Shown here: positions 7,419 through 13,479 of the stretch, piece by piece | Position numbering within the stretch: the first letter of the stretch is position 1 | How the letters are laid out: each line of letters begins with the position of its first letter | Source of the DNA: Rhizorhabdus wittichii RW1 | Lineage (GTDB): Bacteria > Pseudomonadota > Alphaproteobacteria > Sphingomonadales > Sphingomonadaceae | NCBI GenBank assembly: GCA_000016765.1 | Contig: CP000699.1 | Location: forward strand, 5,025,501-5,089,500 | Direction of reading: 5' to 3' | DNA length: 64,000 nt | Program-made: the position numbers and the translations under genes | The notes under the pieces: model-generated | What the model was told of the DNA's origin: nothing | Database searches by the model: none | What the model saw: the letters and a program-made list of their open reading frames with translations, nothing else

Positions 7419-7766
7419 CTAGATACCGCCGACATAGTCGAGGCAGCCGCGCCGGAAGGCCCAGCTGTCGTTCGGGCATTGTGCCGGTTCGTGGACGGCG
7501 GCGAGGGCCGCCCAGCGATAGCCCAGGTCGCGTTCGCTGCACTGGTCGCAGCGCGCCGCCGAGAGCAGGCCGTCGGGCGCATCGGCGGCGGCATCGGACG
7601 GCGCGCCGGCCTGCGCTGGGGCGAACAGCGAGGGCGGTTCGATCGGGCCATAGCGGTTGGGACGGAGGCCGTGGACGGCGACGGCCCCGGCCGTGATCCC
7701 GCCCGTCATGGCGGCGAACACCCAGAGCAGCAGTGGCGACATCCGGCGGGGCGAAGGCGGCCTCAT
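7419..7766 (-). CDS. Hypothetical membrane-anchored small protein with four C-terminal Cys
   Basis: 115 residues. One hydrophobic segment near the N terminus (about 10-30, PLLLWVFAAMTGGITAGAVA) is a signal anchor; the rest would be periplasmic. A C-terminal block from CDQCSERDLGYRW to FRRGCLDYV has four cysteines (CxxC, then two singles) that could form disulfides or bind metal. No family was recognised. The start at 7766 is uncertain because neither it nor an internal ATG at 7742 has a strong ribosome site. Confidence 0.55.
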   Translation of the reverse strand: MRPPSPRRMSPLLLWVFAAMTGGITAGAVAVHGLRPNRYGPIEPPSLFAPAQAGAPSDAAADAPDGLLSAARCDQCSERDLGYRWAALAAVHEPAQCPNDSWAFRRGCLDYVGGI

Positions 7767-7827
7767 GGCGGCAAGAACGGCGGGACGGTCGGCCCGTTCC
7801 AATTTTTTTCGCGAAAGCCACGGGGGT

Positions 7828-7979
7828 GAGTCCTCGGGGCCACACCACAAGGGATTGAGTCTCCCCCGACTGTTGAGACTCAATATGAGGTAACGGACTC
7901 CTTTCGTTCATCCGGCTTCACCGGAATCTCAGATTCGAGAGCCAAAACATTGATCTTGACCGAAGAGTCCTGATGAATC
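7828..7979. promoter_or_regulatory. GANTC-dense regulatory region upstream of ccrM
   Basis: Eight GANTC sites, the CcrM methylation sequence, start at 7828, 7857, 7877, 7896, 7924, 7932, 7965 and 7975. Two of them lie in the arms of a perfect inverted repeat, ATTGAGTCTC at 7854-7863 and GAGACTCAAT at 7875-7884. A TTGACC at 7956-7961 could be a -35 element, with the last two GANTC sites in or near the spacer. This is the layout expected of a promoter read by CcrM methylation and GcrA. Confidence 0.75.
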
Positions 7980-7987
7980 ACCCTTAA

Positions 7988-9163
<1,176 letters not shown>

Positions 9164-10319: not shown

Positions 10320-10415
10320 CGTCGCCCCTGCGTAGGCAGGGGCCCATGTCTGTCCTCTCCCCGATGGTCAACTGGCTGAGAAGAGACATGGGCCCCTGCC
10401 TGCGCAGGGGCGACG
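10320..10415. repeat. REP/BIME-like inverted pair, possible terminator
   Basis: Two 32-base arms (10320-10351 and 10384-10415) are inverted copies with one mismatch. Each arm itself folds into a hairpin with the stem CCCCTGC/GCAGGGG and a four-base loop. It fills the gap between the convergent folP and parE genes, where it could stop both transcripts. The same architecture recurs at 18434, 24750 and 30645. Confidence 0.85.
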
Positions 10416-12819: not shown

Positions 12820-13479
12820 TTATCTGACGCGCGGACCGCCAAAGGGCAAGGGCGGCGGCGGCCGGCGGTCGCGGCGCGGCAGCTGCGCCTGATAGGCGAC
12901 CGAGCAATGCTCGAGGCAATAGGGGAAGCCGGGGTTGATCGGATCGCCGCAGAAATGGAAGTCCGGCTCGCCCGGATGGCCGAGCGGCCATTTGCAGACC
13001 TTGTCGTTGAGTTCGAGCAGGCTGGTCTTGTCCGCCATCTCCGCCGAAGGCTTGGCGGGGACCAGGCGGCGCGGCGGCGCCGGCGGGATCGGGCTGCTCT
13101 GCTCGCCGGGCGACTGGCGCTGGAAACCGCCCGGGCCGATCGAGCGGACGATCGGCTGCGGCGTCGTCGGCGCAGGGGCCGGAGCGGCAGCGGCCGGGGG
13201 CGGCGACACCGGGGCCGGGGCGGGCGTCGGGGCCGGGCGCGGCGGCGGCGCGGCCGCCTTTTCGGGGGCGGGCGTCGCGGCGGCGGCGCTGGCGCCGCCC
13301 GATGCGGCGGCATCGCCGCCCTTCACCGGGGAGGGACGCGCCTCAAGGCCGAGGCGATGGGCCTTGCCGATCACCGCGTTACGGCTGACGCCGCCCAGCT
13401 CGTCGGCGATCTGGCTCGCCGTCATCCCCTGCCCCCACAGGCGCTTGAGCTGGTCTATCCGTTCTTCCGTCCAGGACAT
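12820..13479 (-). CDS. gcrA: Cell-cycle transcriptional regulator GcrA
   Basis: 219 residues. The N-terminal helix-turn-helix (1-45, MSWTEERIDQLKRLWGQG then SASQ-type helix SRNAVIGKAHRLGL) is the GcrA DNA-binding domain that prefers methylated GANTC promoters. A Pro/Ala-rich linker of roughly 85 residues follows. The C-terminal domain (CKWPLGHPGEPDFHFCG ... YCLEHC) is the sigma70/RNA-polymerase-binding part, with Cys/His that look metal-binding. Caulobacter GcrA is about 173 residues, so the extra length is in the linker. Its functional partner ccrM lies 3.7 kb away. Confidence 0.94.
   Translation of the reverse strand: MSWTEERIDQLKRLWGQGMTASQIADELGGVSRNAVIGKAHRLGLEARPSPVKGGDAAASGGASAAAATPAPEKAAAPPPRPAPTPAPAPVSPPPAAAAPAPAPTTPQPIVRSIGPGGFQRQSPGEQSSPIPPAPPRRLVPAKPSAEMADKTSLLELNDKVCKWPLGHPGEPDFHFCGDPINPGFPYCLEHCSVAYQAQLPRRDRRPPPPLPFGGPRVR

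Follow-up and report, generated by a model that had tools for sequence, protein, structure and literature searches.

A conserved, helically phased GANTC element upstream of ccrM in Rhizorhabdus wittichii RW1 as a candidate methylation-read control region

Introduction

In the E. coli Dam/GATC switches, such as pap and dnaA/oriC with SeqA, several methylation sites are read together within one control region. The promoter and leader of the Caulobacter ccrM gene, encoding the GANTC adenine methyltransferase, were reportedly described by Stephens in 1995, and this leader holds few GANTC sites. Like the locus described here, Caulobacter ccrM has GANTC near its promoter and is thought to be autoregulated.

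Published accounts describe Caulobacter ccrM as activated by CtrA (PMC2877005, PMC3667746) and as most probably regulated by methylation (PMC3973325). Caulobacter GcrA is described as a dimeric protein whose binding depends on GANTC methylation and whose footprint differs between half- and fully methylated DNA (PMC3667746), and a GANTC between the −10 and −35 elements is reported to go with one timing class of promoters (PMC4287350). Outside Caulobacter, GANTC is reported to be m6A-methylated in a Sphingomonas (PMC8067484), and in the relevant text of Brilli et al. 2010 GANTC sites before cell-cycle genes were counted, with no conclusion drawn from them (PMC2877005).

Here we describe the region upstream of ccrM in R. 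wittichii RW1, within a 64,000-nucleotide stretch of DNA that was analysed as a whole (the window). In contrast to Caulobacter ccrM, the R. wittichii ccrM region arranges four upstream GANTC sites as a phased dyad, carries two more in the promoter spacer and lacks the CtrA half-site TTAACC. It shares with mipZ, podJ and ctrA P1, which are described as σ70-type promoters with GANTC in the promoter region and in some cases between −35 and −10, the placement of methylation sites in the promoter, but it has two core sites and a distal phased element that the available text of those accounts does not mention for the three promoters (PMC4287350, PMC3667746). Compared to the Dam/GATC switches, the methyltransferase and the readers differ, and the target here is the methyltransferase gene itself. 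No description of a phased upstream GANTC element of ccrM was found in the available text of the open-licence literature searched. Control of promoters by CcrM and GcrA is already known; judged by these searches, the phased four-site dyad appears to be new.

Materials and Methods

The GANTC background was sampled by taking 60 pieces of 20 kb at nearly even spacing along the R. wittichii RW1 genome (1.2 Mb), and GANTC was counted over 1.26 Mb of the 5.9-Mb genome in all. Alignment A2 of the upstream element started from 84 Sphingomonadaceae loci, of which 81 were anchored, 75 aligned and 70 full length; 61 remained at 85% identity, and 59 rows were used after manual removal of L090, truncated at its start, and L100, which lacks GAGTC. 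For alignment A3, 26 of 29 stretches were used and L057, L102 and L297 were excluded by hand. The 80 added Sphingomonadaceae loci and 58 added loci from outside the family were hand-picked, mostly one per genus or family, and L101 was moved by hand from the family set to the outgroup. One of the 118 outgroup loci, L313, begins inside the gene, and its upstream region is not properly covered. Spacings were taken from 164 Sphingomonadaceae loci, of which 24 were skipped (21 for lack of a site-1 anchor) and 19 were removed as near-duplicates, leaving 121 dereplicated loci. Profile R1, built from sequence without structure, represents the upstream element and model R2 its dyad.

Results

The R. 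wittichii RW1 genome encodes both ccrM and gcrA, which lie 3.7 kb apart in the window.

8015..9163, plus strand: ccrM, GANTC adenine methyltransferase (NF050803 match)
12871..13479, minus strand: gcrA (matched part), candidate reader of methylated GANTC (PF07750, E 1.5e-40; Pfam E 2.6e-42)

The ccrM open reading frame matched NF050803 with an E value of 7.6e-187 and 620 bits, below the equivalog cut-off of 830. All 14 genomes of the genus and 198 of 199 family genomes gave a CcrM match, although that of at least one genome (G163, E 3e-13) is too weak for CcrM. Downstream of ccrM are the genes for dihydropteroate synthase and a gyrase-B-type topoisomerase, probably parE, followed by gcrA, whose product carries a long Pro/Ala-rich stretch between its N- and C-terminal parts. 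The convergent ends of the dihydropteroate synthase and gyrase-B-type genes are separated by a long REP-like inverted repeat (10320-10415, with GGGGCCCATG and CATGGGCCCC parts). Upstream of ccrM are a small reverse open reading frame (7419-7766, no Pfam match) and rnhB, and a terminator-like stem with a trailing T run (7779-7809, plus strand) lies just upstream of the GANTC sites, where it could shield them from upstream transcription.

A sequence-only reading of this DNA had pointed to eight GANTC sites before ccrM, at 7828, 7857, 7877, 7896, 7924, 7932, 7965 and 7975, and to an inverted repeat with perfect arms (ATTGAGTCTC, 7854-7863, and GAGACTCAAT, 7875-7884), all of which we confirmed from the letters. 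A ninth GANTC, at 8032, falls within the ccrM coding region. The rate of one per 256 bp given there for random sequence does not describe the real background, which is one per 817 bp: the 60 sampled pieces contained 1.22 GANTC per kb compared to 2.95 expected from base composition, a 2.4-fold depletion over the sampled 1.2 Mb, and 79 GANTC were counted in the window where 326 were expected. A comparison with this background had been set beforehand as a test of the cluster, and the density at ccrM proved far higher, eight sites in 152 bp compared to a maximum of six in any other 152-bp stretch of the 1.26 Mb counted; within the 1.2 Mb of sampled pieces the densest stretch had six, five stretches had four and the rest three or fewer. 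In dinucleotide shuffles, the intergenic region 7767-8014 gave a mean of 2.0 GANTC and reached eight in 3 of 20,000 cases, and 7828-7979 reached eight in 1 of 20,000. The array region has a GC content of 51%, compared to 69% in its surroundings; AT-richness thus accounts for part of the GANTC density, not for the count of eight. The same enrichment was seen across the family: in 84 Sphingomonadaceae loci, the 330 bp surrounding the ccrM start were 13.5-fold denser in GANTC than the remaining sequence, compared to a 1.3- to 2.7-fold difference for control motifs of like form.

The second densest cluster in the genome sample, with six GANTC in 152 bp (L185:850-1060, at about 3.116 Mb on contig 1), lies directly before a hemE-like gene and contains DnaA-box-like sequences. 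The sampled cumulative GC skew has its minimum between about 3.0 and 3.65 Mb, and this cluster is probably the chromosome origin.

Comparison with relatives divided the sites before ccrM into an upstream element and a predicted core promoter. Distances below are from the first T of the −35 hexamer, and the numbers of loci refer to the 121 dereplicated Sphingomonadaceae loci.

7828..7909, plus strand: upstream element (module 1), four GANTC and conserved non-GANTC blocks (59-row alignment A2)
7828..7832, plus strand: site 1, GAGTC, at −128; GAGTC in 59 of 59 A2 rows, in part a product of row selection, as the rows had been anchored near GANTC and L100 was excluded for lacking GAGTC
7841..7846, plus strand: CACACC block separating sites 1 and 2 and not itself a methylation site; nearly invariant in A2, partly by construction, since the block served as an anchor
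7845..7893, plus strand: dyad around the inverted repeat, family consensus approximately CCACAAGATRTTGAGTC-N15-GACTCAAYATCTTGTGG
7857..7861, plus strand: site 2, GAGTC, left arm, at −99; GANTC 27-31 bp past site 1 in 101 of 121 loci
7877..7881, plus strand: site 3, GACTC, right arm, at −79; GANTC 46-52 bp past site 1 in 100 of 121
7896..7900, plus strand: site 4, GACTC, within conserved CGGACTCCTTTCGTTC (7894-7909), at −60; GANTC 65-72 bp past site 1 in 80 of 121
7924..7928, plus strand: linker GAATC, at −32, position not conserved
7932..7936, plus strand: linker GATTC, at −24, position not conserved
7956..7961, plus strand: predicted −35 hexamer TTGACC, TTGAC in the relatives scored
7965..7969, plus strand: core site 5, GAGTC, in the −35/−10 spacer, at +9; at +8 or +9 in 86 of 121
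7975..7979, plus strand: core site 6, GAATC, reaching the first base of the −10, at +19; at +19 or +20 in 103 of 121
7979..7984, plus strand: predicted −10 hexamer CACCCT, a poor TATAAT match placed by its 17-bp spacing from the −35

The view of the sites as a single dense array therefore held for the density but not for the unity, since there are two modules and six sites keep their places family-wide while those at 7924 and 7932 do not. Among the 59 rows of A2, site 2 was GAGTC in 50 and site 3 was GACTC in 51. Spacings between the upstream sites of approximately 29, 20 and 19 bp recurred across the 121 loci when counted inside set windows around the expected places (29 bp in 91 of the 101 loci that have site 2, 20 or 19 bp in 84 of 86, and 19 bp in 50 of 64), and GANTC peaked at −128, −99, −79, −60, +8/+9 and +19. 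That relatives would share the GANTC density was borne out by these comparisons, in which the same sites occur in the same places. Sites 2, 3 and 4 are nevertheless each absent from their place in about one-sixth to one-third of the 121 relatives, which argues against a methylation switch. In searches of the R. wittichii genome with R1, ccrM was the only significant place, and the additional match to the opposite strand at the dyad (E 0.0085) is expected because the element is a dyad. A further match (E 0.45) fell, as judged by eye, inside the coding region of an apparent LysR-type regulator and was dropped as chance. Taken on the aligned sequences, the upstream element together with the predicted core promoter is a real, conserved and ordered regulatory element.

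The gene that this element could serve was also indicated by its surroundings in relatives. An rnhB stop in the same direction lay at most 450 bp upstream in 52 of 121 relatives, so the reverse open reading frame at 7419-7766 is unlikely to be the target, and a role of the element as a divergent promoter for it was set aside as unlikely. In 11 of the 52 loci scored, the rnhB stop TGA overlaps site 1 (TGAGTC), so that the element begins exactly at the end of the upstream gene.

A simple σ70 consensus scan of the array region found no promoter match, and the predicted core promoter therefore rests on conservation. It contains GANTC between −35 and −10, as do some GcrA/CcrM-regulated promoters. 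A TTGAC-like hexamer followed by two GANTC was present in 57 of 84 Sphingomonadaceae loci and 21 of 35 other loci, and 59 of the 118 loci outside the family had a slightly looser two-site pattern; the other half of these 118 (e.g. L105, L117 and L131) lack the two-site core, a second point against a methylation switch. The two-site core pattern had five matches in 1.26 Mb of the R. wittichii genome on both strands, with TTGAC only at ccrM. The extended GcrA motif YGAKTCK, as given in PMC7987155, fits only sites 2 and 3 (TGAGTCT on one strand) and none of the six others, including both core sites; the same source reports no preference beyond GANTC for 18 genes in Brevundimonas. In five loci from outside the family (L107, L109, L112, L118 and L130), a GANTC in a TTGATTCCAATAAA-like context stands shortly before the −35 in a different layout.

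The distance between the upstream element and the core promoter varied in discrete steps. From site 1 to the −35 it was 116-119 bp in 10 loci, 125-131 bp in 91 and 136-141 bp in 19 (n = 121), with none of the 121 at 120-124 or 132-135 bp; the single value of 164 bp is a mis-anchoring of L070, for which the anchor expression took a GACTC upstream of the real site 1. These groups are 10-11 bp apart, corresponding to steps of one helical turn. Two control distances showed no steps: that from the rnhB stop to site 1 was scattered from −52 to 191 (52 loci), and that from the −35 to the start codon formed one broad peak from 41 to 88 (88 of 121 loci readable). When the spacings, available for 70 of the proteins, were mapped onto a tree of 84 CcrM proteins, a minimum of seven changes of spacing class and 32 changes of exact distance was required. 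Because Rayleigh values were dominated by the main peak, they were set aside and the phasing argument is based on the class counts. Variation of promoter distance in one-turn steps is the criterion of a stereospecific site, and it suggests that a protein bound to the upstream element contacts the promoter complex from one face of the DNA.

The complete element appears to be confined to one family, while its parts are more widespread. At an E value of 0.001, R1 matched 157 of 246 Sphingomonadales genomes, some of which had given rows to the model and many of which had not, and all matching rows were Sphingomonadaceae. Of the 89 genomes without a match, 20 were listed, comprising 6 Sphingomonadaceae and 14 from other families; if the listing is sorted by kinship, as it seems to be, 157 of 163 Sphingomonadaceae and none of 83 genomes from other families match. 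In at least 48 genomes, all of those with both R1 and ccrM coordinates among the matches listed, the R1 match precedes ccrM by 100-373 bp and shares its strand. Across 289 alphaproteobacterial genomes, R1 gave ten matches at E 0.01, four in Sphingomonadaceae (R. wittichii included) and six outside. Four of these six, two of them in one genus, covered only the dyad and stood directly before a CcrM-like gene; for the other two no CcrM-like gene was found within the fetched flanks. Of the 118 non-family loci, six (L107, L327, L344, L369, L306 and L307) gave full matches (E <0.01) to the dyad model R2 before ccrM, and L386 gave a half-match; the R2 training rows include L107 and also L299, which is the same place as L327. 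Because dyad matches stand before ccrM in other alphaproteobacterial families, the dyad seems to be older than the Sphingomonadaceae, with a patchy occurrence outside them. GANTC-rich regions upstream of ccrM are not special to the Sphingomonadaceae: non-family regions had a median of four GANTC in about 370 bp, with four or more in 60 of 118. The highest non-family count, 12 GANTC in about 370 bp (L377), exceeds that in R. wittichii RW1.

For the inverted repeat, the sequence-only reading had offered a second layer, either a cruciform or a site for a dimeric protein, and the comparative data favor the latter. The dyad positions paired in 71.6% of cells, compared to 27-45% when the pairing was slid. 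The ten arm pairs formed in 77.6% of cells over 59 relatives, showing that the arms, perfect in R. wittichii, are not perfect throughout. The number of dyad cells changed on both sides (58, compared to 41.1 in shuffles, 1 of 500 being as high) and the covariation score (0.115 compared to 0.093, 5 of 500 being as high) would suit a structured RNA, but a palindromic DNA site gives the same signal, and these were the two of five measures that clearly exceeded shuffles, pair types being no more numerous than in shuffles. An RNA layer found no support: fold energy did not improve on that of shuffles (z −0.18), no consensus structure emerged from the 59 sequences, Rfam gave no match at the gathering score in the array region (two matches were far below it), and transcription is predicted to start downstream of the element.

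Discussion

We propose, with a probability of roughly 55%, that the array forms the ccrM control region, acting as an autoregulatory switch read through its own methylation. In this proposal a protein, probably dimeric, would bind the dyad and touch the polymerase complex directly or via a small loop, and both this binding and that of GcrA at the core would depend on full versus half methylation. Replication of the locus would leave all sites half-methylated at once, changing occupancy and allowing ccrM to be transcribed, after which CcrM would re-methylate its own promoter and close it, completing a negative feedback. GcrA would be the first candidate for both dyad and core, with an unknown family regulator second for the dyad. 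The dimeric state and methylation-dependent binding described for Caulobacter GcrA agree with this role, but the restriction of YGAKTCK matches to sites 2 and 3 speaks against it. If several sites were read by one complex, the response could be sharper than that of one site. Shut-off by full methylation seems likelier than activation, although the sign is a guess.

Timing in such a switch would be set by replication of the locus. In Sphingomonadales, ccrM is reported to have no clear position along the ori-ter axis, from which it follows that timing by fork passage would differ between species; a pure fork-position timer is weakened by the same observation (PMC8116508).

The principal alternative is that an ordinary activator or repressor uses the element as its operator, with GANTC methylated but serving just as recognised letters. 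Conserved letters beyond GANTC (CACACC, a GTG near 7888-7893, and TTTCGTTC), the restriction of site 1 to GAGTC rather than any GANTC, and the dyad-like matches before ccrM in other families are all compatible with such an operator, and a methylation-blind activator would produce the same phasing. We regard this explanation as unlikely, since it would require that four CcrM targets in the operator of ccrM itself, together with two in the core, arose by accident in a genome depleted of GANTC, which is implausible.

A more specific version of the methylation-read switch, which we put forward tentatively and also consider unlikely, invokes a dedicated, hitherto unknown dimeric methyl-reader. This protein would bind GATRTTGAGTC-N15-GACTCAAYATC in one methylation state and contact the promoter from a fixed face, with the four to six sites acting as one unit, ccrM pulsed once per cycle and the dyad older than the family.

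It is less probable still that a MucR-type or other occluding protein covers this AT-rich region and keeps its GANTC unmethylated, such that the sites report occupancy. The R. wittichii genome has six MucR-family matches, local GC content is low, and MucR is reported to occlude GANTC in Caulobacter and Sinorhizobium, in control regions that, like the one before ccrM, contain GANTC and may be covered by a protein (PMC5172544). The ccrM element, in contrast, has strict sequence, spacing and helical phase, whereas according to the account in PMC7987155 no MucR consensus has been identified in Caulobacter with which it could be compared.

A region that is origin-like or controlled by DnaA, in which DnaA and GANTC couple ccrM to the initiation of replication, is very improbable for R. 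wittichii, although several observations in relatives pointed this way. Strict DnaA boxes numbered 26 in 25 of 84 Sphingomonadaceae upstream regions, a few of them near-duplicates, compared to none in 311 kb of the rest of these loci. A DnaA box was present in 53 of 121 relatives, and in 43 of the 121 it covered the likely start of transcription, at positions +28 to +33 relative to the −35. In addition, the second densest GANTC cluster in the genome sample is the probable origin, with its DnaA-box-like sequences, and Brilli et al. 2010 predicted that DnaA controls ccrM, chiefly in cases lacking CtrA sites (PMC2877005). Nevertheless, motif scans found no DnaA box (even relaxed), CtrA half-site TTAACC or IHF consensus in the R. 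wittichii ccrM upstream region, and of the 53 loci in relatives that have a DnaA box, 43 carry it downstream of the core promoter rather than in the dyad. DnaA is likely an added layer in some lineages and an unlikely explanation of the R. wittichii RW1 array. CtrA half-sites were found in 35 of 84 Sphingomonadaceae upstream regions, 33-fold over the rest of the loci, and in relatives they are mostly grouped near −39, −28 and −15.

Finally, regulation of ccrM by an RNA leader hairpin or cruciform, for which the perfect 10-bp arms in R. wittichii and the paired changes in the dyad might have spoken, is extremely improbable; the fold energies and the position of the element speak against the RNA form.

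For the methylation-read switch proposed here, the quantised spacing gives a direct prediction, in the form of 5-bp versus 10-bp insertions between element and promoter. The 80-bp element also provides a defined bait for finding the reader, and more than 100 natural variants form a set for asking how several methylation sites are read together. Most of what is known about how CcrM synthesis is confined to a short part of the cell cycle comes from Caulobacter, in which CtrA drives ccrM. In the Sphingomonadaceae, and perhaps in much of the Alphaproteobacteria, ccrM seems to be wired differently, via its own methylation sites.
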